Assembly: GCA_003644265.1 (NCBI GenBank)
Contig: QNBX01000025.1
Coordinates: 1 to 36,936, forward strand
DNA length: 36,936 bases
Direction: 5' to 3'
Source: Planctomycetota bacterium
Lineage (GTDB): Bacteria > Planctomycetota > B15-G4
Of this stretch, positions 2,051-17,830 are shown piece by piece. Position 1 is the stretch's first letter. Every line of letters starts with the position of its first letter. The notes below the pieces were generated by a model that ran no database searches, was not told where the DNA came from, and saw nothing but the letters and a program-made list of their open reading frames with translations. The position numbers and the translations under genes are program-made.

Positions 2051-2689
2051 ATGACCGACACGCCCACCCTGCTCGTGCGTCACGGTGAGGTCGACGCCGC
2101 GCACAAGGGCACCTTCTACGGCGGCGCCGAGGTCCCGCTCTCAGCCGAGGGCGCCCGCGCCAGCCTGATCCTGGCCGAGCAGCTCGCCGCGCGCCGGCCC
2201 GCGCCGCAGGTGGTGGTCAGCAGCCCGCTCTCCCGCGCCCGCGCCGTGGGCGAGCCCCTGGCCCTCGCCCTGGGTCTCGAACTCTGGATCGAGCCCGGGC
2301 TGATCGAGCTCGACCGGGGCCGCTGGACGCACCTGCACCACGATCAGGTGGAGGCCGCAGAGCCCGGCGCCATCGCCCGCTACCTGGCCGACCCCGACGC
2401 GGGCGCGGCCCCCGGCGGCGAGACCGAGAGCGTCTTCTGCGCGCGCGTCTGGACCGCGCTCGACGCCGTGATCGCGCGCGCGGCCGGGCGCCCCACCGTG
2501 ATCGTGAGCCACGGGCATGTGATCCGCGCGACCCTGCGCCGTCTCAGAGCCTGGGACGCCGTGCGCTCGCTGCAGGAGTTCGTGCCCTACCACGCCGTGG
2601 TGCAGACCACCCTGCGCCCCGACGGCAGCGGCCAGCTGCACGGGCAGCCCGAGTCGATCCTGCCCGAGGCCCTGCGCCGGGCCCGCTGA
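2051..2689 (+). CDS. Histidine phosphatase family protein (phosphoglycerate-mutase-like)
   Basis: A 212-residue protein close to the usual length of the branch 1 histidine phosphatase superfamily. The N-terminal 'LLVRHGEVD' carries the catalytic phospho-accepting His and the adjacent Arg. 'SSPLSRARAVGEPLA' is the second conserved Arg region. 'GGETESVFCARVW' matches the family's GES(x)xxF region, and 'VIVSHGHVIRA' supplies the second catalytic His. The family includes cofactor-dependent phosphoglycerate mutase, alpha-ribazole phosphatase (CobC) and nonspecific phosphatases; the sequence does not decide among them. No cobalamin gene is nearby. A short GC hairpin overlaps the stop codon. Confidence 0.85.
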   Translation: MTDTPTLLVRHGEVDAAHKGTFYGGAEVPLSAEGARASLILAEQLAARRPAPQVVVSSPLSRARAVGEPLALALGLELWIEPGLIELDRGRWTHLHHDQVEAAEPGAIARYLADPDAGAAPGGETESVFCARVWTALDAVIARAAGRPTVIVSHGHVIRATLRRLRAWDAVRSLQEFVPYHAVVQTTLRPDGSGQLHGQPESILPEALRRAR

Positions 2690-2749: not shown

Positions 2750-4867
2750 ATGAGCACCACCGCAGGAGCGCCAGACCTCTGCACCCGCCAACAGGTCGAG
2801 CAGCTCGAGCTCGAGCTGCTGCGGCCCGGCGCCGCGTTGTCCAGCGTCTCCTGGGCGCGGCCCCAGACCGAGGCGCCCGACGCCTTCCGCATCTGCTTCG
2901 TGCGCGACCGCGACCGCGTGCTGCACTGCGGCGCCTTCCGGCGGCTCAAGCACAAGACGCAGGTGTTCGTCGCCAACCGGGACGACTTCTACCGCACGCG
3001 CCTGACCCACACGCTCGAGGTCGCGCAGCTCGCTCGCTACGCCGCCCGGGCGCTGCGCCTCAACGAGGCCCTGGTGGAGGTGCTGGCGCTGGTGCACGAC
3101 ATCGGGCACCCGCCCTTTGGCCACGAGGGCGAGCGCATCCTGGACGAGATCACGGGGGTCCCCTTCGATCACAACCGTCAGGCCCTGCACATCGTGGACG
3201 TGCTGGAGTCGCCCTACCCCGACCGGCGCGGCCTCAACCTGACCCAGCTCGTGCGGCGCATGATCCTCAAGCACGGCGGTGACGCCGGCTGGGGCGCGCC
3301 CCCTACCGAGGGCCACGTGCTGGAGGCGCAGCTCAGCGACATCTCCGACTCGCTGGCCTATCAGCACCACGACCTGGAGGACGGCCTGCGCGCCGGCGTG
3401 CTGCACGAGGCCGAGCTGGCCGAGCTGTCGATCTGGAGTCAGGCCATGGACGAGGCGGGCGACGTGCCCGACGGCGCGTGCGGGCGCAAGGCGCGCCTGA
3501 ACCGCATGCTCAAGGCCAGCCTCGCTGACCTGCTGGAGCACAGCGCCGCGCAGCTGGCATCGCTGCCCGTGCGCGGTCTCGACGCGGAACAGATCGCGGC
3601 CGGCGGCCAGCGCCTGGTGGGCTTCTCACCGGCGCGCAGCAGCCAGCACGCCGAGCTCATGCGCTTTCTCTACGAGCGCTTCTACCGCAGCCCCCAGGTG
3701 CTGAGCAGCCGCGCCGTGGCGCAGGACGCCCTCGGCACCATCGTGGAGCATTATCGCACCCAGCCCGACGCGCTCCCGGAGGCCTACCGTCAGCGCCTGG
3801 ACGAGCACGGCCTGGAGCGCACGGTGTGTGACTACGCGGCCGGCATGACCGACCGCTTCGCGCTGGAGGAGTGGCAGCGGCTGAGCCCGGGCGGGGGCCA
3901 CGGGAGCGGGGTCGATCGCGGCAGAAGCAGTCGCAGTAGCGGCAGCGGCGGCAGCGGCAGCGGCAGCGGCGGCGGCAGCGGCGGCAGAAGCAGCAGCAGT
4001 GGCAGCAGTGGCACCAGCCTCGGCCCCGGGGCTGAGGCTGAGGCCATGGCCGCCGCCGTCACGCGGCTGGGCCAGCGCATTGGACACCGCTTCGCCGACC
4101 GCTCGCTGGCCGCCATGGCGCTGACCCACTCGTCGGCGCGCAGCACTTCGCGGCCGCCCAACGAGCGGCTGGAGTTCCTGGGGGACGCGGTGCTCGGCAT
4201 GGTCGTCGCGCAGCGCTGCTACGAGCAGTTCCCCGAGCAGCCGGAGGGCGAGCTCTCACGCATCAAGGCCACCACCGTCAACCGCCACGCGCTGGCGGAC
4301 GTGGCCGACGCCTGGAGCCTGCGCCCCATGCTGCGGGTGGGCGCCGGCTTCAAGCAGGCCTCGGACGTGCCGGTCTCGATCGTGGCCGACGCCGTCGAGG
4401 CGGTGCTGGGCGCCGTGCTGCTGGACGGCGGCTTCGCGGCGGCCGAACCCTTGATCGTGGCCACCTTCGGCCCACGCATCGAGCGCGCCGCCGAAGGGCG
4501 GCGCTCGCGCAACGCCAAGTCCGACCTGCAGACGTTCACCCAGGGCCGCCTGAGCCTCACGCCCAACTACCGCCTGCTCTCGGAGACCGGCCCCGACCAC
4601 GCCAAGGAGTTCCGCGTGGCCGCCGTGGTGGGCGAGCGCGAGGTGGCCGTGGCCGCCGGACGCAACAAGCGTCAGGCCGAGCAGCGCGCGGCTCAGCAGG
4701 CCCTGCGCACCCTGCGCGAGGAGGCCGGCGAGACACCGGACGTCCCGCACGCCGAGCCAGACTCCCCGAGCGACCCACCCGAGCCCGGTGGAGACACGCC
4801 CACGTCCCGTCGCCGCACGACCAAGCCCCGGCGCGACACGCCCGATACCGGAGCGCAGTCAGCGTGA
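2750..4867 (+). CDS. Fusion: HD-domain dNTP triphosphohydrolase + ribonuclease III
   Basis: A single 705-residue open frame with two enzymes. Residues about 1-378 are a dGTPase-like HD phosphohydrolase: 'RDRDRVLHCGAFRRLKHKTQ', 'RTRLTHTLEV' and 'HDIGHPPFGHEGE' supply the metal-binding H...HD motif. About 50 residues of Gly/Ser-rich linker follow (about 380-430). Residues about 433-705 are RNase III: 'NERLEFLGDAVLG' is the family signature, and 'VADAVEAVLGAVLLDGG' carries the downstream acidic catalytic pair. A dsRNA-binding domain (about 590-660) and a basic tail follow. Both halves look catalytically intact. The first normally hydrolyses dNTPs to nucleosides plus triphosphate; the second cuts double-stranded RNA. 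An in-frame ATG at 4046 could yield a separate RNase III. The GTG start of mfd overlaps the stop. Bacterial RNase III normally stands alone. Confidence 0.85.
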   Translation: MSTTAGAPDLCTRQQVEQLELELLRPGAALSSVSWARPQTEAPDAFRICFVRDRDRVLHCGAFRRLKHKTQVFVANRDDFYRTRLTHTLEVAQLARYAARALRLNEALVEVLALVHDIGHPPFGHEGERILDEITGVPFDHNRQALHIVDVLESPYPDRRGLNLTQLVRRMILKHGGDAGWGAPPTEGHVLEAQLSDISDSLAYQHHDLEDGLRAGVLHEAELAELSIWSQAMDEAGDVPDGACGRKARLNRMLKASLADLLEHSAAQLASLPVRGLDAEQIAAGGQRLVGFSPARSSQHAELMRFLYERFYRSPQVLSSRAVAQDALGTIVEHYRTQPDALPEAYRQRLDEHGLERTVCDYAAGMTDRFALEEWQRLSPGGGHGSGVDRGRSSRSSGSGGSGSGSGGGSGGRSSSSGSSGTSLGPGAEAEAMAAAVTRLGQRIGHRFADRSLAAMALTHSSARSTSRPPNERLEFLGDAVLGMVVAQRCYEQFPEQPEGELSRIKATTVNRHALADVADAWSLRPMLRVGAGFKQASDVPVSIVADAVEAVLGAVLLDGGFAAAEPLIVATFGPRIERAAEGRRSRNAKSDLQTFTQGRLSLTPNYRLLSETGPDHAKEFRVAAVVGEREVAVAAGRNKRQAEQRAAQQALRTLREEAGETPDVPHAEPDSPSDPPEPGGDTPTSRRRTTKPRRDTPDTGAQSA
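3885..4020. repeat. Low-complexity AGC/GGC repeat encoding the Ser/Gly linker
   Basis: A degenerate run of GGC and AGC/AGT triplets inside the fusion gene. It encodes almost only Gly and Ser, with a few Arg. It marks the domain junction and is prone to slippage; only changes in multiples of three would keep the frame. Confidence 0.7.
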
Positions 4868-7800
4868 GCGCAGGGGCGCCGGCCTGTCGCTCGCTGCTCG
4901 ACGCCCTGGCCCGCAGCGGGCCGGTGGCGCAGCTGAGCGCGTGCGTCGCCGGCGGCGGCCGGGTCGAGCTGGGCGGCGCGGCCCGGGCCGGCGCCGCGGC
5001 GGTGGCCGGGCTCGCCGCGCACCCAACGCAGCGCACGGTGGTGGTGGCCGCCAGCGCCGAGAGCGCCGAGAGCGCCGCCCTCGACCTGGGCTTCTTGTTC
5101 CCGGACCTGGCCGTGGCGCTGCTGCCCGCCGCCGAGTCCGAGCTCGACGACGGCCCCACCGCGCGCGCCCTGCGCTCCGAGCGCCTGGTGGCCCTGGGCA
5201 GCCTGGGCGAGCCCGGCCCCGGCCTGCTGGTGGTGAGCGCCCCCGTGTTCCTGGAGGACTTGCCCGCCACCGACGGCCCGGTGGCGCTGATCGAGCGCGG
5301 CGGCCGGCTGCAGCGCGAACTGCTGCTGCGGCAGCTCTCCGACCAGGGCTTCTCCAAGGTGGCCATGGTGGCCGCCCCGGGCGAGGTCTCGGTGCGCGGC
5401 GACATCCTCGACATCTACCCCTGGGCCGCCACCCACCCCGTACGCGTCGAGCTGTTCGACGACGACGTCGAGGACCTGCGCCGCTTCGAGGTCGACACCC
5501 AGCGCTCGGTCGAGACGCTCGACTCCATCAGCCTGCGCCTGGGCTCGGGGCAGGGCCAGCAGCGCTCGTTCACGGAGCTGCTGCTGGACGACACCGCGCT
5601 GATCGTGCTCGACCCGCCGGGCGTGCGCGACCGCCTGGTGGAGGTGGCCTTCGAGGCCGGCAGCGCACCGCGGGAGATCGACGCCGTGCTGGCCGCCATC
5701 GCGCGACAGCCCGGCGGCGAGGTCTTCCCGCTGGACGTGGGCGAACCCGCGCGCGACCTCTCGCTGCACGCCGTCAGCCGCGACGCGCGCCCGCTGGCGG
5801 AGGTTCTGCGCGCCTGGCTCGACGCCGGCCGCGAGGTCACGCTGCTGTGCGACGGCGTCGGCGAGCGCGACCGCCTGGCCCACGCGCTGAGCGCAGACGG
5901 CCTGCCCGAGCACCCCGCCCTGAAGCTGGCCGTGGGCCGCGTCACCGCCGGCTTCAGCCTGCCCGCGACAGGCCCGCTGCTGGTGCACCATCACGAGCTC
6001 ATCGGCCGCCGCGCCGTGCGCCGCAGCCGCCCCACGCGGGTGGTGGCCAGCCGCGCCCTCGACTCCGTGGCCGAGCTGGCCGCGGGCGACTACGTGGTGC
6101 ACCTGCTGCACGGCGTGGGCCGCTACCAGGGCATGCAGCGCCTGCAGCGCGAGCAGGGCGAAGAAGACTTCCTGGTGCTGGAGTTCGCTGAGGGCACCAC
6201 CATGTACGTGCCCGCCAGCCGCATCGACCTGGTGGAGCGCTTCATCGGCGGCGACGCCGTGTCGCCCAAGCTGGATCGCCTGGGCGGCCGCACCTGGCGC
6301 CGCAAGAAGGAGAAGGTGGCCCAGGCCTGCCGCGACCTGGCCAGCGAGCTGCTGGAGCTACAGGCCCAGCGCGCCAGCAACAAGGGCTTCAGCCACCCGC
6401 CGGGCGACACCGCCGAGGCCGACTTCGAGGCCACCTTTGCGTACGAGGACACGCCCGACCAGCGCAAGGCCTGGGACGACGTGCGCCACGACATGGAGTC
6501 GCCGCGCGTCACCGACCGCCTGGTGGTGGGCGACGTGGGCTTCGGCAAGACCGAGGTGGCCGTGCGCGCCGCCTACAAGACGGTGCTGGCCGGGCGCCAG
6601 TGCGCCGTGCTGGTGCCCACCACCATCCTGGCCGAGCAGCACCACGAGACCTTCCGGCACCGCATGGCCGAGGAGCCCGTGCGCGTGGAGGCGCTCTCGC
6701 GCCTGAGCAGCGCGGCCGACGTCAAGTCCGTGCTGGCGGGCATCACCAGCGGCGCGGTCGACATCGTGATCGGCACGCACAAGCTGCTCTCCAAGAAGGT
6801 GCGCTTCGCCAACCTGGGCCTGGTGATCGTGGACGAGGAGCAGCGCTTCGGCGTGGTGCACAAGGAGCGCCTCAAGCAGCTGCGCGCCGAGGTCGACGTG
6901 GTCACGCTCTCGGCCACGCCCATCCCGCGCACGCTGCACATGGCCATGAGCGGCCTGCGCCAGATCTCGACCATCCACACGCCGCCGCCGGGGCGCCTGC
7001 CGGTGCTCACCAAGGTCACCTACGACAGCGATGACATGCTGGGCAAGGCGCTCAAGCACGAGCTCAACCGCGGCGGCCAGGTGTTCGTGCTGCACAACCG
7101 CGTGCAGTCCATCGACACCATGCTGACGCGCGTCAACGCGCTGGTGCCCCACGCGCGCGCGGCCATCGCCCACGGACAGATGTCCGCGCGCGAGCTGCAG
7201 CGCGTGGTGGACGAGTTCGCGTCGGGCGAGATCGACGTGCTGGTCTGCACCACCATCATCGAGTCGGGCATCGACATCCCACGCGCCAACACCATCGTGG
7301 TCACCGACGCCCAGCGCTTCGGCCTGGCCGACATGCACCAGCTGCGCGGGCGCGTGGGCCGCGAGAACCGCCAGGCCTACGCCTTCTTCCTGGTGCCCAA
7401 GGAGAAGCTGCCCGAGGGGGCCAACCGGCGGCTCAAGGCCATCGAGGAGTTCAGCTCGCTCGACTCCGGCCTGCCCATCGCCCTGCGCGACCTGGAGCTG
7501 CGCGGCGCGGGCAACCTGCTGGGCGCCGAGCAGTCGGGGCACATCCTGGCCGTGGGTTACGACACCTACTGCCGCCTGCTGCGCGCCGCCGTGTCCGCGG
7601 CCCGCGGCCGCACGGTGGAGGACGAGCCCGGCGAGATCGAGGTCGAGCTGGCGCTGACGGCCTTCCTGCCCGCGGAGTACGTGCCCGACGAGAGCCAGCG
7701 CATGGCCCTGCTGCGCCGGCTGGCGGGAGCCGGCAAGCGCAAGCTGCAGGCCCTGCGGCTCGAGCTGGTGGACCGCTTCGGCGAGCTGCCCGTCCCCGCC

Positions 7801-8070
7801 GCCGAGCTGCTGCAGCTGTTCGAGCTGCGGCGCCTGCTGCGCCTGGCGGGCGTGAGCTCGCTGCTGGCCGACGGCATGGGCGCCGCGCTGATCAACATCT
7901 CCGACGAGCAGGCCTTCACGCAGCGCCACCCCTTCCGGCCCGACGAGTTCTTCCTGCTCTCGCCCGATCGCATCCGCGTGCCGTGGCCCCGCTCGATCAG
8001 CTCGCCCTCGCAGCGCTTGGATTGGCTGGTCGAGCGCTTCGGCGCCGCCCGCGCCGCCGCGCCCAGCTGA
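4864..8070 (+). CDS. mfd: Transcription-repair coupling factor Mfd
   Basis: A 1068-residue protein, near the family's usual length. It removes RNA polymerase stalled at DNA lesions and recruits UvrA. The N-terminal part resembles UvrB ('VSVRGDILDIYPW'). The RNA-polymerase-interacting domain follows ('LAAGDYVVHLLHGVGRYQGM', 'EFAEGTTMYVPASRIDLV'). The RecG-like motor has Walker A 'GDVGFGKTEVA' (about residue 556), DEEQ box 'VIVDEEQRFGV', and motifs 'TLSATPIPRTLHMAMSG', 'TTIIESGIDIP' and 'QLRGRVGRENRQAYAF'. A C-terminal TRCF domain ends the protein. The GTG start overlaps the TGA of the RNase III fusion (GTGA), so the two are translationally coupled. This positional link between dsRNA cleavage, nucleotide-pool hydrolysis and transcription-coupled repair is notable. 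Confidence 0.97.
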   Translation: MSAGAPACRSLLDALARSGPVAQLSACVAGGGRVELGGAARAGAAAVAGLAAHPTQRTVVVAASAESAESAALDLGFLFPDLAVALLPAAESELDDGPTARALRSERLVALGSLGEPGPGLLVVSAPVFLEDLPATDGPVALIERGGRLQRELLLRQLSDQGFSKVAMVAAPGEVSVRGDILDIYPWAATHPVRVELFDDDVEDLRRFEVDTQRSVETLDSISLRLGSGQGQQRSFTELLLDDTALIVLDPPGVRDRLVEVAFEAGSAPREIDAVLAAIARQPGGEVFPLDVGEPARDLSLHAVSRDARPLAEVLRAWLDAGREVTLLCDGVGERDRLAHALSADGLPEHPALKLAVGRVTAGFSLPATGPLLVHHHELIGRRAVRRSRPTRVVASRALDSVAELAAGDYVVHLLHGVGRYQGMQRLQREQGEEDFLVLEFAEGTTMYVPASRIDLVERFIGGDAVSPKLDRLGGRTWRRKKEKVAQACRDLASELLELQAQRASNKGFSHPPGDTAEADFEATFAYEDTPDQRKAWDDVRHDMESPRVTDRLVVGDVGFGKTEVAVRAAYKTVLAGRQCAVLVPTTILAEQHHETFRHRMAEEPVRVEALSRLSSAADVKSVLAGITSGAVDIVIGTHKLLSKKVRFANLGLVIVDEEQRFGVVHKERLKQLRAEVDVVTLSATPIPRTLHMAMSGLRQISTIHTPPPGRLPVLTKVTYDSDDMLGKALKHELNRGGQVFVLHNRVQSIDTMLTRVNALVPHARAAIAHGQMSARELQRVVDEFASGEIDVLVCTTIIESGIDIPRANTIVVTDAQRFGLADMHQLRGRVGRENRQAYAFFLVPKEKLPEGANRRLKAIEEFSSLDSGLPIALRDLELRGAGNLLGAEQSGHILAVGYDTYCRLLRAAVSAARGRTVEDEPGEIEVELALTAFLPAEYVPDESQRMALLRRLAGAGKRKLQALRLELVDRFGELPVPAAELLQLFELRRLLRLAGVSSLLADGMGAALINISDEQAFTQRHPFRPDEFFLLSPDRIRVPWPRSISSPSQRLDWLVERFGAARAAAPS

Positions 8071-11899: not shown

Positions 11900-13456
11900 G
11901 TGGCCCCACACGACCCGTTTCCAGAGCTCGTCAGCCAGAAGCAGCACGGCCCCGGCATCCACGAGGAGCACAGCTTCGAGGACACCCTGCGGGATCTGGT
12001 GCGCAACTCGCCGTACCTGGGCATCTCGCTGCTGATGCACCTGGTGGTGCTGGCCATCTTCATGAGCATGAAGAACCCGATCCCGGTCGAGGACGAGAAG
12101 AACAAGATCGTCGCGACCCAGGAGGTGATCGAGGAGCCGATCCCGCCGGAGCCGGAGGAGGAGCCCGAGATCGACGAGATCGACGAGATCATCGAGGAGC
12201 CCGTCATCTCCGAGGACGTGGTGACCGAGGTCAGCGAGATCATCGATCCCAACAATGTGGACGCGGCCTTCGAGTCCACCGGTGCCAACGACGTCATCGG
12301 CGTGGGCGGTGGCGGCGGCAGCTTCGGCGGCCGCGGCAAGGGGCGCTCGCGCGGCAAGGCGGCCGGCGCGCCGCACCAGAAGACCGTCGACGACGCGCTC
12401 ATGTGGCTCAAGAACCACCAGAACCCCGACGGCTACTGGTCGGCCGAGGGCTTCGAGGAGGAGTGCGGCAAGCAGGGTGACGGCATCTGCAGCGGGCGCG
12501 GCAGCGTGCACCACGACATCGGCGTCACCGGCCTGGCGCTGCTGGCCTTCCTGGGCGCCGACAACACCGACAAGCGCGGCAAGTACAAGACGACCGTCAA
12601 GGCCGGCCTGCGCTACCTGCTCGAAGTGCAGGACCGCAGCGGCAGCTTCGCCACGAACGACATCTCCACCAACACGTACGACCACTTCCTGGCCACCCTG
12701 GCCGTGGTGGAGGCCTACGCGCTGACGGGGCAACACCGCTACAAGAAGGCCGCGCAGGACGCCATGGACTTCGCCTACGCCATGCGCAATCCGGCGGGCG
12801 CGTGGCGTTACAGCAACCCCTCCGACCCCGACATGATCACGCACCCGGACGACGTCTCCGTCACGGGCTGGGCCGTCATGGCCATGACCATGGGCAAGGA
12901 CTACGACCTGGAGATCGACGACGTCGCGCTCGAGGACTCGCTGCTGTTCATCGACGAGATGACGGGCGCCGACGGTCGCACCGGCTACTACGAGCCGGGG
13001 GGTGGCTCCTCCCGCCCGCTGGGCCGCGAGGATGATTTCCCGTACGAAGAGACCGAGGCCATGACCGCGGTGGGCGTGCTGTGTCGCATCTTCGCCGACC
13101 CGAACATGGAGCGCACCGACATCCAGAACGAGCAGGACATCGAGAAGGGCGTGAAGCTGCTCCTCGACCTGCCCATCGTCTGGGACGAGGACGTGGCGCC
13201 CGGCAAGATCGACTTCTACTACTGGTACTACGCCACCTACGCGCTCTATCAGTGGGGTGGCAAGGACTGGCGCGCCTGGGAGTCGGGCATCCCGATGGTG
13301 GCCAAGATGCAGATCGGCGAGGGCGAGCCCAAGGGCTCCTGGGACCCACAGGTCGACGTCTGGGGCGGCGAGGGCGGCCGCGTGTACTCCACCGCCATCC
13401 TGGCCCTGATGATGGAGGTGTACTACCGCTACGACTCGGTGCTCGGCAGCCACTGA
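11900..13456 (+). CDS. Membrane-anchored squalene-cyclase-fold (alpha/alpha toroid) protein A
   Basis: A 518-residue protein. A cytoplasmic tail of about 40 residues is followed by one membrane helix (about 41-57, 'LGISLLMHLVVLAIFMSM'), a strongly acidic Glu/Pro/Ile spacer (about 62-115) and a Gly-rich hinge. A prenyltransferase/squalene-oxidase-repeat domain runs from about 160 to the end: 'ALMWLKNHQNPDGYW', 'TYDHFLATLAVVEAYAL', 'DDVSVTGWAVMAMTMG', 'TEAMTAVGVLCRIF'. The anchor plus acidic/proline spacer mirrors TonB-type proteins, so the toroid should sit in the periplasm. I see no DxDD motif of true squalene-hopene cyclases, so terpene cyclisation is unlikely. The GTG start has GCAGGAG 7 nt upstream. 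A close paralog follows. Confidence 0.8.
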   Translation: MAPHDPFPELVSQKQHGPGIHEEHSFEDTLRDLVRNSPYLGISLLMHLVVLAIFMSMKNPIPVEDEKNKIVATQEVIEEPIPPEPEEEPEIDEIDEIIEEPVISEDVVTEVSEIIDPNNVDAAFESTGANDVIGVGGGGGSFGGRGKGRSRGKAAGAPHQKTVDDALMWLKNHQNPDGYWSAEGFEEECGKQGDGICSGRGSVHHDIGVTGLALLAFLGADNTDKRGKYKTTVKAGLRYLLEVQDRSGSFATNDISTNTYDHFLATLAVVEAYALTGQHRYKKAAQDAMDFAYAMRNPAGAWRYSNPSDPDMITHPDDVSVTGWAVMAMTMGKDYDLEIDDVALEDSLLFIDEMTGADGRTGYYEPGGGSSRPLGREDDFPYEETEAMTAVGVLCRIFADPNMERTDIQNEQDIEKGVKLLLDLPIVWDEDVAPGKIDFYYWYYATYALYQWGGKDWRAWESGIPMVAKMQIGEGEPKGSWDPQVDVWGGEGGRVYSTAILALMMEVYYRYDSVLGSH

Positions 13457-13581: not shown

Positions 13582-13738
13582 GCGTTCAGGACCAGCTCGA
13601 TTCAGCCACGGGAGAGCGATGCCCGCCAAAGCGCGCGGGCGTGCCGTCGCGTGACACCGGCCTGTGGCGGCGCTAACTGAGCTGCACACCCCGGCCGTGC
13701 CCGTCCCACCGCTTGCGGACGGTCCAAGCAGGCACCCC

Positions 13739-15361
13739 ATGGAGGGCAGCGCCGTGGTGTCCACCCGTCCGAGTCCGCCCACAGCGCGCCCCGACGCGCA
13801 GCTCATCAGCGCGCCGCGCGAGCCCGCGCCCAGCTTCGAGCAGTCCCTGCGCGAGCTGGTGCGCAGCTCGCCCTACGTGGGCGCCTCCCTGGCTCTGCAC
13901 GCGCTGGTGCTGCTGCTGCTCGTGATCCAAGAGGTCCCGCTGCCCCAGCCCGACCCCGAGCAGGCGTCGATCCGCGCCACGCTGCCCGACACCGCGGAGC
14001 TGGTGCCGCCCGAGCCGCCCCCGCCTCCGCCCCCGCTCGTGCCGCCGGAGAGCGTGCCCGAGGTCACGGATGTGCTGGCCGCGCTCGACGATCTGGACGC
14101 GCTGCCCAGCGACATCCCCAGTGACCTGCCTTCGGACCGTCCGTCGGACGCGCCCTTCGACGACACCACGGCCCTCAACCTGATCGGCCTGGGCGGCGGC
14201 AGCGTGGGGCGCCCGCCGGGCAGCAGCAAGCTGTCTCGGCGCGGCGCCGGTGGCATGCCTCACGCCCGGCAGATCGACGCCGCCCTGGACTGGCTGGCCC
14301 GGCACCAGCACCCCGACGGCCACTGGTCAGGCGAGGGCTTCCAGGACGAGTGCTCCCCGGATGACGAGCTGTGCTCGGGGCGCGGCAGCGTGCACCACGA
14401 CGTGGGCCTGACCGGCCTGTCCCTGCTGGCCTTCCTGGGAGCGGGGCACAGCGACCGCCGGGGCCCCCACGCCGACACCGTGCGGCGCGGCATCCGCTGG
14501 CTCACCGAGGTGCAGGATCAGGAGGGACGCTACGCGGCCAACGAGGTCTCGACGGCCACCTATGACCACTTCCTGGCAACCCTGGCCATGATCGAAGCCA
14601 GCGCCCTGGGCCAGCGCAGCCAGACCCGTCGCAGCGCCTTGGCGGCCCTGGGCTGGGCCGAACGGCAACGCAACCCCGGCGGGGCTTGGCGCTATCTGCG
14701 CCCGTCAGACCCCGAGATGCTGGAGGCCCCCGACGACGTGTCCGTCACCGGCTGGGCCGTGATGGCCCTCAGCCTGGCAGCGGACCAGGGCCTGCCCGTG
14801 TCGCAGGACGCCCTGCTGGACGCGCTGCTGCTGGTGGACGAGCTCACCGACGAGCGCGGACGCACGGGCTACGTGCAGCGCGGCGGCGGCAGCAGCCGGC
14901 CCCTGGGGCGTGGCGAGACCTTCCCGGCCCACCAGACCGAGGCCATGACCGCCGTGGGCCTGCTGTGCCGGCTGTTCATCGACCCCGGCCTGCAGCGCGA
15001 CGACCTGGACAGCGCCGGCGACGCCGAGCGCGCCGTGGAGCTGCTGCTCGAGTTGCCCATCGTGTGGGACCAGCGCCGCTCCCCCGGGCGCATCGACTTC
15101 TACTACTGGTACAGCGCGACCTACGCCTTGTTCCAGTACGGCGGCGAGGCCTGGCGCCGCTGGCAGCCGGGCCTGGACGTGGTGGCCGCGCACCAGGAGA
15201 CCCTGGGCGCACGGCGCGGCAGCTGGGATCCGGCCCCGGACGTGTGGGGCGCAGAGGGCGGCCGGATCTACTCCACCGCCATGCTCACGCTGCTGCTGGA
15301 GGTCTACTCACGCTACGACGTCAGCCTGCAGACGCAACGCGGCCGCAGACGAGCACGCTGA
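13739..15361 (+). CDS. Membrane-anchored squalene-cyclase-fold (alpha/alpha toroid) protein B
   Basis: A 540-residue tandem paralog of the preceding gene with the same order: cytoplasmic tail, one membrane helix (about 46-64), a Pro-rich spacer ('PPEPPPPPPPLVPPE'), an Asp/Ser/Pro stretch and a C-terminal toroid domain. Conserved landmarks include 'SPYVGASLALHALVL' at the membrane, 'GRGSVHHDVGLTGLSLLAFL', 'DDVSVTGWAVMAL', 'TEAMTAVGLLCRLF', 'RIDFYYWYSATYAL' and 'GGRIYSTAMLTLLLEVYSRY'. The spacer has diverged (proline here, glutamate in A) while the toroid is well conserved. The ATG at 13739 has AGCAGG about 7 nt upstream; a GTG at 13664 would add 25 residues without homology to A. Function unknown. 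Confidence 0.8.
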   Translation: MEGSAVVSTRPSPPTARPDAQLISAPREPAPSFEQSLRELVRSSPYVGASLALHALVLLLLVIQEVPLPQPDPEQASIRATLPDTAELVPPEPPPPPPPLVPPESVPEVTDVLAALDDLDALPSDIPSDLPSDRPSDAPFDDTTALNLIGLGGGSVGRPPGSSKLSRRGAGGMPHARQIDAALDWLARHQHPDGHWSGEGFQDECSPDDELCSGRGSVHHDVGLTGLSLLAFLGAGHSDRRGPHADTVRRGIRWLTEVQDQEGRYAANEVSTATYDHFLATLAMIEASALGQRSQTRRSALAALGWAERQRNPGGAWRYLRPSDPEMLEAPDDVSVTGWAVMALSLAADQGLPVSQDALLDALLLVDELTDERGRTGYVQRGGGSSRPLGRGETFPAHQTEAMTAVGLLCRLFIDPGLQRDDLDSAGDAERAVELLLELPIVWDQRRSPGRIDFYYWYSATYALFQYGGEAWRRWQPGLDVVAAHQETLGARRGSWDPAPDVWGAEGGRIYSTAMLTLLLEVYSRYDVSLQTQRGRRRAR

Positions 15362-15784: not shown

Positions 15785-17122
15785 TCAGTCCTGCAGAGCC
15801 TCGATCTTGGCGGCCACATCCTTGAAGTGGATGTCGACCTCGTAGATCTCCAGGTACTTCTCCAGGGCTTCCTGGGTCTGCTCCTGGCGCTCGCAGGCGA
15901 GCCCCAGATGGTAGCAGATCTCTTTTCCGCGGTCGCTACCCACGCCGCCGGCCTTGGCCAGGGCCTGCTCGAACTGCTTGCGAGCCAGGGGATACATGCC
16001 CTTGCGGAAGAAGCAGGCCCCCAGCCCCTGCCGGGCCGCCAGCTCGCTGCGCGGGTCCGAGACCAGGGCCTGAAAGGCGTCGATGGCCTCATCGGTGCGC
16101 TTGGCCCGGTAGCAGGCCTGCCCCAGCTTGAGGCGCGTGGCGCCGTCCCCGGGGTGGCGCTGGATGCGGCGGCTGAACTCGGCGATCTCCAGCTCGAGCC
16201 GCGCGGCCTTCAGGGCCTGCTCGGCCGCAGAGTCGCCGGCGACCCGGGCCGCCTCGAGCCCGGCCTTGTTGGCGGCCAGGCCGATCTCGCCGGCCAGATC
16301 CAGCAGGCCGTCGTCCTCGGGGTGATGCACCAGACCGGCCTGGGCGTCGGCCGCGGCGCGCTCCAGGTCGCCGGCGCGCATGCGGGCCTTGAGCAGCTTG
16401 CGGCAGGCGTCCACGTCATCCGGCGCGGCGGCCACGCGCTGGGCCAGCTGCTCGATGTCGGCGCTCAGCTCCTCGTCGGTGCGGTGCAGGCGCGAGCTGC
16501 TCTCCGCCTGGCGCAGGGCGTCCTGGTCGCGGATCAGCTCGCGTGAGCTCTTGGCGGTCTCGAACTTGGTGCTGGCCAGGGTGCCCTCGGCCACCAGGTG
16601 CTTGCGCAGCTTCTCCACCGCGGGGTCATGGGGGTCGATGGCGTGGGCCCGGTCCAGCAGTTCGATGGCCTCGCGGATCTCCATCAGCTCGTAGTGCAGG
16701 CTCCCGGCGGCCTTGAGCGCCTCGACGTCGCGCTCGTCGCGCTGCAGGCGCTCGGTCCAACAGGCCAGGGCCTCGTGGGGGCGCCCCAGGGCCGAGAGGG
16801 CGTCGCCCAGCATGCCCAGCACGGCCCCCTCGTTGGGGTCCTTCTCCAGCGCGGCCTCGCAGGACTTGACCACCAGGCTGTGCTGGCCGGCCTTCTGGGA
16901 GCCCGCCGCCGCGGCGCGCAGGGTCTTGGCCGCGGCCCGGTCCAGCAGGTTGGGGCCGCCCTTGAGCTCGGCCCGGCGCTTGCACGCCGCCAGCAGCCCG
17001 GCCCGCGCGCCGCCGTGGTCGGGAGAGGCCACCAGGACCTGCTTGTAGAGCGCCACCGCCTGGGGCACCGCGCGCTTGCGCAGGGCCTGCTCGGCCTTCA
17101 CAAGGAACTTGTCGACGTCCAT
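15785..17122 (-). CDS. TPR-repeat protein
   Basis: A 445-residue protein made largely of tetratricopeptide-like helix pairs: 'RKRAVPQAVALYKQVLVASP', 'GMLGDALSALGRPHEALACW', 'YELMEIREAIELLDRAHAID', 'LGQACYRAKRTDEAIDAFQA', 'GLGACFFRKGMYPLARKQFE', 'YHLGLACERQEQTQEALEKY'. There is no signal peptide or membrane helix, so it is a cytoplasmic scaffold. A less regular central part (about 190-300) is charged and helical. The start MDVDKFLV lies 7 nt after a TAACGT box and lacks a Shine-Dalgarno, suggesting a leaderless mRNA. It diverges from def-ribF and precedes rpsT. The frame stays open far upstream through ribF antisense; I reject that extension. Confidence 0.85.
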   Translation of the reverse strand: MDVDKFLVKAEQALRKRAVPQAVALYKQVLVASPDHGGARAGLLAACKRRAELKGGPNLLDRAAAKTLRAAAAGSQKAGQHSLVVKSCEAALEKDPNEGAVLGMLGDALSALGRPHEALACWTERLQRDERDVEALKAAGSLHYELMEIREAIELLDRAHAIDPHDPAVEKLRKHLVAEGTLASTKFETAKSSRELIRDQDALRQAESSSRLHRTDEELSADIEQLAQRVAAAPDDVDACRKLLKARMRAGDLERAAADAQAGLVHHPEDDGLLDLAGEIGLAANKAGLEAARVAGDSAAEQALKAARLELEIAEFSRRIQRHPGDGATRLKLGQACYRAKRTDEAIDAFQALVSDPRSELAARQGLGACFFRKGMYPLARKQFEQALAKAGGVGSDRGKEICYHLGLACERQEQTQEALEKYLEIYEVDIHFKDVAAKIEALQD

Positions 17123-17129
17123 GGCGGCA

Positions 17130-17135
17130 ACGTTA
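17130..17135 (-). promoter_or_regulatory. -10 box for the TPR gene, leaderless configuration
   Basis: On the minus strand GCTAACGT is followed by 7 nt and the ATG. With the usual 6-8 nt from the -10 box to the transcription start, the mRNA would begin at or next to the ATG. Confidence 0.5.
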
Positions 17136-17302
17136 GCACAGGCCCCGCGACCCGGCGACGCGGCCCAACACGGCCTCAAGCGCCGCTCCCGCGAAGCGGC
17201 GAGCCACGCCGGTTGGCCCCGCATCGACGCAGCGGGACGGGCCGGGGCCGCCCGGACCGCGCGCCCACCATGACGCCCCGTGCGGCCCCCCACAGGCCAT
17301 GC

Positions 17303-17308
17303 GATGAT
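17303..17308 (+). promoter_or_regulatory. Candidate -10 box for def, leaderless configuration
   Basis: GATGAT (context GCGATGAT) lies 6 nt before the def ATG, with no Shine-Dalgarno in between. It is the weakest of the leaderless candidates because the first T is replaced by G. Confidence 0.35.
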
Positions 17309-17314
17309 CTCCCC

Positions 17315-17830
17315 ATGCAACTTGAACTCCGCATCTGGCCCGACCCCGCCCTGACCCGCCGCGCCGCCGCCGTCGAGAGCTTCGATCAGGAGCTGGCCGA
17401 CCGCATCGCCCGCATGTGGGAGGTCATGTACGAGGCCGGTGGCGTGGGCCTGGCGGCGCCGCAAGTGGGCTGGTCGGCGCGCTTGCTGATCCTCAACCCC
17501 GAAGGCAACCGGGACGACACCAGCGGCGAGCTGGTGATCATCAACCCGCGTGTGGTCAAGAAGTGGGGCAAGGACACGGCCCAGGAGGGCTGCCTGTCGT
17601 TCCCCGACATCTTTGTGGACGTGAACCGGCCGGCGGGCATCCGGCTGGGCTGGCAGGACGCCAGCGGCGCCGAGCACGAGCAGGACTTCGACGAGTTCGT
17701 GGCGCGCATCCTGCAGCATGAGAACGACCACCTCGAAGGGGTGCTGCTGGTGCATCGCATGAGCCCCGTCGACAAGATCCAGTGGCGCCGGGAGCTCGAG
17801 GAGCTGGCCGAGAGCGCCGCGGCCAGCTGA
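17315..17830 (+). CDS. def: Peptide deformylase
   Basis: A 171-residue enzyme that removes the formyl group from the initiator Met of new proteins. All three signature motifs are present: 'GVGLAAPQVG' (motif 1), 'EGCLSFP' (motif 2, metal ligand Cys93) and 'QHENDH' (motif 3, His135 and His139 metal ligands, Glu136 catalytic). The length is typical. The start is the ATG giving MQLELRIWPDPAL; it has a -10-like box 6 nt upstream and no Shine-Dalgarno. ribF follows after 9 bp in the same transcription unit. Confidence 0.95.
   Translation: MQLELRIWPDPALTRRAAAVESFDQELADRIARMWEVMYEAGGVGLAAPQVGWSARLLILNPEGNRDDTSGELVIINPRVVKKWGKDTAQEGCLSFPDIFVDVNRPAGIRLGWQDASGAEHEQDFDEFVARILQHENDHLEGVLLVHRMSPVDKIQWRRELEELAESAAAS

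Follow-up and report, generated by a model that had tools for sequence, protein, structure and literature searches.

RNase III and the deoxynucleoside triphosphate (dNTP) triphosphohydrolases are known as separate enzymes. The Thermus thermophilus dNTP triphosphohydrolase (structure 2dqb, family model TIGR01353) stands alone, without RNase III, and the bacterial RNase IIIs of E. coli (7r97) and Aquifex (2nug; family model TIGR02191) stand alone without an HD domain. Two further HD-domain dNTP hydrolases, CloA of the Clover system and the Shewanella anti-phage dGTPase, belong to the same superfamily and likewise lack an RNase III. According to PMC12265719, CloA is under allosteric control by nucleotides and acts together with an adjacent nucleotidyltransferase. 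The window analysed here, a stretch of 36,936 nucleotides from a Planctomycetota bacterium, encodes a dNTP triphosphohydrolase and an RNase III in one protein (Table 1).

The fused gene is a single uninterrupted frame that begins with an ATG at 2750 and ends with a TGA at 4865-4867. Pfam matches along the protein were HD (residues 84-203), HD_assoc (290-377), Ribonucleas_3_3 (450-571), Ribonuclease_3 (472-561) and dsrm (589-655). Both halves passed their NCBIfam cut-offs, the HD half for TIGR01353, dGTP_triPase (240.7 bits, cut-off 152.35), and the C-terminal half for the RNase III equivalog TIGR02191 (195.1 bits, cut-off 166.25), which together with the unbroken frame bears out the proposal, made in a preliminary description of this DNA, that an HD-domain dNTPase and an RNase III share one polypeptide. 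The HD half is a Thermus-type dNTP triphosphohydrolase that resembles 2dqb over residues 13-380, with the HD set kept, and differs from it in being fused. The RNase III and its dsRNA-binding domain (dsRBD) occupy approximately residues 438-657 and have the signature, second acidic motif and dsRBD of the E. coli and Aquifex enzymes, whereas the HD half has no counterpart there. Among the NCBIfam matches listed, the HD half missed the cut-offs of all eight narrower equivalog models for dGTPases and of the subfamily model NF003701. No other copy of dgt or rnc, for either half, was found within the window. An apparent second fusion at 16598-17830 (+) was rejected: in this frame of 410 codons the peptide deformylase domain is confined to residues 244-392, and the first approximately 237 residues read as a spurious frame before a plausible ATG.

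Table 1. Features of the fused gene and its immediate neighbours (positions in the window)
Feature	Position	Strand	Evidence and remarks
Histidine phosphatase gene, neighbour	2051..2689	+	PF00300 128.2 bits; ends 60 bases upstream
Whole fused gene	2750..4867	+	705 codons plus TGA; open frame
dNTP triphosphohydrolase half, residues 1-380	2750..3889	+	TIGR01353 240.7 bits; 2dqb aligned over 13-380
H87 codon, first HD-set histidine	3008..3010	+	Identical in 45/45
H116 and D117 codons, HD pair	3095..3100	+	Identical in 45/45
D200 codon, last metal-site aspartate	3347..3349	+	Identical in 45/45
Linker, residues 381-437, Ser/Gly-rich	3890..4060	+	57 residues, longest of 45 aligned; 383-421 pLDDT <50
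GC-rich short tandem repeats, period 6/9/15, encoding most of linker	3921..4018	+	Tandem Repeats Finder
RNase III half, residues 438-705, disordered tail from 667	4061..4864	+	TIGR02191 over 442-654; model
RNase III catalytic domain, residues 450-571	4097..4462	+	PF14622 92.2 bits; E475, D479, E550 in 45/45, D547 in 43/45
dsRNA-binding domain, residues 589-655	4514..4714	+	PF00035 62.1 bits
mfd (transcription-repair coupling factor), neighbour	4864..8070	+	UvrB_inter, CarD_TRCF_RID, DEAD, Helicase_C, TRCF

The preliminary description had suggested looking for this domain pair and its taxonomic spread in protein databases. Public protein records were searched with the RNase III half as query among proteins whose length was 0.55-1.75 times that of the fusion; the 7995 candidates with the most shared words were scored and 120 of 128 matches were listed, so that more members are possible. 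At least 49 of the 120 listed long RNase III proteins, the window's own included, also bear HD_assoc, and 46 of these bear HD as well. Organism names are attached to seven of the pair-bearing rows, and six of the seven are Planctomycetes or Planctomycetota (P0007, P0009, P0016, P0018, P0032 and P0050); the seventh, P0005, is labelled Pseudohongiellaceae, which we suspect to be a case of mis-binning. P0017 and P0016 come from long sequences, of 5.29 Mb and 1.16 Mb. The fusion is not a local accident but a conserved family. An assembly slip at the joint is unlikely because at least 46 of the 120 listed rows (window protein included) hold the full HD and RNase III pair, mostly with a shorter linker. 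Forty-five full-length fusions could be aligned end to end, with 53-73 % identity to the window protein; this set omits from the 49 pair-bearing rows P0029, P0034 and P0037, in which the N-terminus is short, and P0050, which is labelled partial. Other RNase III fusions, recognized by precomputed Pfam accessions, made up one to five listed rows per type, compared with 49 of the dNTPase type. By their Pfam families, we take these to be an Fpg/MutM type (P0054, P0066, P0116, P0117 and P0119), PHP fusions (P0053, P0056 and P0112), a T2SSE fusion (P0055), an acyl carrier fusion (P0118) and a double RNase III (P0049). They are like the window protein in having RNase III in frame with the product of another gene. 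Where their sources name them, members of the dNTPase–RNase III family are called after one half only (dGTPase, ribonuclease III or dNTP triphosphohydrolase) or as 'hypothetical protein', which constitutes an annotation gap.

Residue conservation among the 45 aligned proteins indicates that both ends of the fusion protein are under constraint. Eleven positions checked in the HD half, including H87, H116, D117, H120, H125, H141, D200, Y204 and D208, were identical in all 45; H87, H116, D117 and D200 are presumably the HD metal set (H...HD...D) of the family. In the RNase III half, E475, D479 and E550 were identical throughout, while D547 was found in 43 proteins (N in two) and E472 in 42 (Q in three), both being present in the window protein. 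We take these five acidic positions to be the catalytic ones of the family. The dsRBD positions checked were kept in 44 or 45 of the 45. The catalytic motifs that the preliminary description had quoted as intact in both halves are present in the window protein.

The linker differs in this respect, with 18-25 residues in 36 of the 45 members and an overall range of 18 to 57, the window protein lying at the upper end. In the window it is encoded by a GCAGCGGCA-type repeat, for which Tandem Repeats Finder returned four overlapping rows (3921-4008, 3927-4006, 3942-4018 and 3948-3997), and we infer that the window linker grew by slippage. One rival explanation is that an internal start near 4046, or cleavage within the linker, yields two separate proteins, and that the fusion has no lasting meaning. 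Shortly before the RNase III domain there is indeed an ATG, at 4046 (residue 433), and a possible free RNase III, P0121, lies within the fusion clade described below. However, only 17 of the 45 members have a Met in the alignment region from residue 381 to residue 457, at scattered places, so no common internal ATG start is visible; these counts were judged from proteins and apply to ATG starts, as GTG and TTG starts cannot be judged in this way. Separate products are very unlikely on this evidence.

An AlphaFold2 model built with the 45-row alignment (mean pLDDT 82.7, pTM 0.66) had a disordered linker between two modules predicted with confidence, with pLDDT below 50 for residues 383-421 and 667-705; being a monomer, it says little about contacts between the halves. 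Among the best 50 of 486 Foldseek matches, the HD half matched six chains of 2dqb, the dNTPase of Thermus, at TMt 0.91-0.93 and 41-42 % identity. For the RNase III half, TMt was 0.82 with 7r97 of E. coli and 0.79-0.81 with the Aquifex structures 2nug and 2ez6. Further RNase III chains among these 50 superposed worse (TMt 0.59-0.63, rmsd 11-14), presumably owing to the orientation of the dsRBD. The CloA and Shewanella anti-phage dGTPase chains, in the same best 50, had 18-21 % identity to the HD half, those of CloA alone 18-20 %. These matches bear on the proposal that the HD half has been redirected to an RNA-linked substrate, such as transcript 5' ends, and serves RNA processing. Its sole support is the tie to RNase III, alongside the failure to reach any of those eight narrower models, while the identity of the eleven HD-half positions in all 45 members and a dNTPase as the closest solved fold both argue against it. 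Redirection of the HD half is, in our judgement, a very improbable explanation.

Phylogenetic trees were reconstructed separately for the two halves. A branch with SH-aLRT 100 separated the fusions from all other proteins in the HD tree, which comprised 45 fusion rows and 43 others (42 solo dGTPases plus that of locus L001). In the RNase III tree (45 fusion rows and 36 others, namely 31 solo RNase IIIs and five other long ones), they formed one group with SH-aLRT 96, with the solo protein P0121 nested inside; long branches meet in this tree, that of P0145 with that of P0051. When the trees of both halves were compared for the same 45 proteins, 25 of 42 splits were common to both, against at most two in 500 label shuffles. 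The groupings indicate that the fusion arose once in this sample, and the shared splits indicate that the halves have been inherited together and have a common history. All seven planctomycete-labelled solo RNase IIIs in the tree (P0133, P0141, P0178, P0219, P0221, P0222 and P0229) belonged to the solo group next to the fusions, while the labels of the closest solo dGTPases were mixed: Deltaproteobacteria (P0245), Anaerolineae (P0258, P0284 and P0317) and Planctomycetes (P0267). These were quick trees with SH-aLRT support only, midpoint-rooted and with solo rows drawn from part of the best-scoring matches, and the sister group is therefore provisional. Among the fusions, P0047 branched off deepest. 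P0121 is an apparently free RNase III of 272 aa from a contig of 1954 bases. Its exclusion from the fusion clade was weakly rejected (p-AU 0.036) with a smaller set of 23 solo RNase IIIs and P0121, which omits P0133, P0145-P0149, P0181 and the five long ones. P0121 may have split from a fusion at a later time, or it may be a broken gene or an artefact of gene calling.

Searches for solo-length proteins, with the best 120 matches listed per half, returned few close relatives of either half alone. The top six of the 120 listed solo-length RNase IIIs had 55-58 % identity and were all located on contigs of 1.0-2.2 kb; three of them (P0122, P0034 and P0123) retained an HD_assoc remnant and three (P0121, P0124 and P0125) did not. 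The remaining 114 listed had 42-49 % identity. The HD-half search, which admitted fusions of up to 674 aa, listed 39 of them, 79 full-length solo dGTPases at 41-47 % identity and, at 69 %, the short HD-only rows P0240 and P0241, the latter labelled partial. P0124 and P0125 (RNase III only) and P0240 and P0241 (HD only) may be either free halves or truncated fusions. A scan of genome contigs with the fusion confirmed at least 596 relatives, and each of the 80 that were analysed matched best in the dGTPase half. These 80 loci are mostly alphaproteobacterial by title, with flanks of up to 10 kb and some short contigs, and give no measure of fusion frequency. No unfused dgt-rnc neighbours were seen, as the DNA of the 80 dGTPase-half loci gave no match to RNase III at E up to 1e-3; the four matches in that search were all in separate loci chosen for their RNase III.

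The GTG start of mfd overlaps the stop codon of the fusion gene. At a greater distance in the window, the neighbouring proteins of 11900-13456 and 13664-15361 (+) each match the C-terminal domain of squalene-hopene cyclase modestly, with 35.4 and 38.2 bits. An eight-base tandem repeat, GCGGGCAG, is present in 7.6 copies at 1352-1411, in the upstream part of the frame 837-1520 on the minus strand, which encodes an RF-1 domain.

A role in nucleic-acid defence had been raised in the preliminary description, and as a rival explanation the fusion would be an anti-phage effector that depletes dNTPs and cleaves dsRNA upon infection. dGTPases can act against phage (PMC12265719), and the PADLOC dGTPase model PDLC02374 matched the fusion with 256.6 bits. 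However, six solo dGTPases that are not known defence genes scored 287.4-356.4 bits with this model, and the PADLOC assignment was dropped after these controls. The anti-phage dGTPase model NF041026 was missed (183.1 bits against a cut-off of 400). The flanking genes, a histidine phosphatase (His_Phos_1) and mfd, also argue against defence, as does the steady co-inheritance of both halves. The nucleotidyltransferase gene that is adjacent to CloA in Clover, according to PMC12265719, has no equivalent on these flanks, and no match to a Pol-beta-type nucleotidyltransferase was obtained in 20 window frames up to 28.4 kb, eight of which had no Pfam match at all. Matches to the fusion were found in 31 phage and 245 plasmid records, with 20 listed for each, and in none of the 31 or the 245 did one place cover 80 % of the query. 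In IMG/VR, 33 loci were found, all matched in the HD half, from which both search patterns were taken; the best-matching one, L085, has phage-type genes on its contig and a cut-off dGTPase at the contig edge. The defence proposal is consequently unsupported, and we consider an anti-phage effector extremely unlikely.

The observations are probably best explained by a native RNase III of the lineage having become fused to a functional dNTPase, with a flexible linker between two domains that work independently; both are predicted to be active. Of the proposals in the preliminary description, that of a housekeeping RNase III which gained a domain agrees best with the data, as the RNase III half adjoins solo RNase IIIs of which the labelled ones are Planctomycetota, including Phycisphaerae; a housekeeping role and the absence of another rnc in the genome are what we infer for this organism. 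One old event, in an apparently planctomycete lineage, would have brought a Thermus-type dNTPase gene in frame upstream of the resident gene for RNase III. The two would since have been inherited as a unit and expressed as one protein of about 75 kDa. The HD half would convert dNTPs to nucleoside and triphosphate, while the C-terminal half would dimerise and cleave dsRNA like an ordinary bacterial RNase III, acting on rRNA precursors and on structured and antisense transcripts. The flexible linker would allow each half to form its putative oligomers separately. The simplest benefit would be production at a fixed 1:1 ratio and co-assembly, with no direct chemical coupling.

The prediction of an HD module and an RNase III module joined by a disordered linker was counted toward this reading of independent domains. 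Alternatively, the halves may be functionally coupled, as the preliminary description had proposed. RNase III would then be organised or switched by an HD oligomer that acts as a sensor or consumer of dNTPs, or, in a variant, dsRNA binding would alter dNTP hydrolysis, so that RNA processing tracks the DNA-precursor pool. The retention of both catalytic sets in the fusion over 53-73 % identity fits functional coupling as well, and the short linker of 18-25 residues in 36 of the 45 members would also fit a defined mutual arrangement of the halves. Nucleotide allostery of an HD dNTPase has a precedent in CloA (PMC12265719). However, no ordered joint was predicted, the window linker being disordered, and linker length varies from 18 to 57 residues among members. 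Coupling in either direction is, taken together, unlikely, and it is equally doubtful that the fusion is a regulatory device in which a dNTP-sensing HD oligomer switches the lineage's one RNase III and ties dsRNA processing to the DNA-precursor pool.

The preliminary description knew of no described bacterial fusion of these two enzymes. No description of a dNTPase–RNase III pair was found in the open-licence literature searched, although public protein records contain the architecture without remarking on it. PMC2696425, on phage T3, mentions dGTPase and RNase III, and PMC2837639 mentions RNase III, 'Planctomycet-' and gene fusion. The single origin in the sample and the keeping of both active sites over wide divergence suggest that the two enzymes belong together in this lineage. 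The fusion makes a link between RNA processing and DNA-precursor control directly testable.
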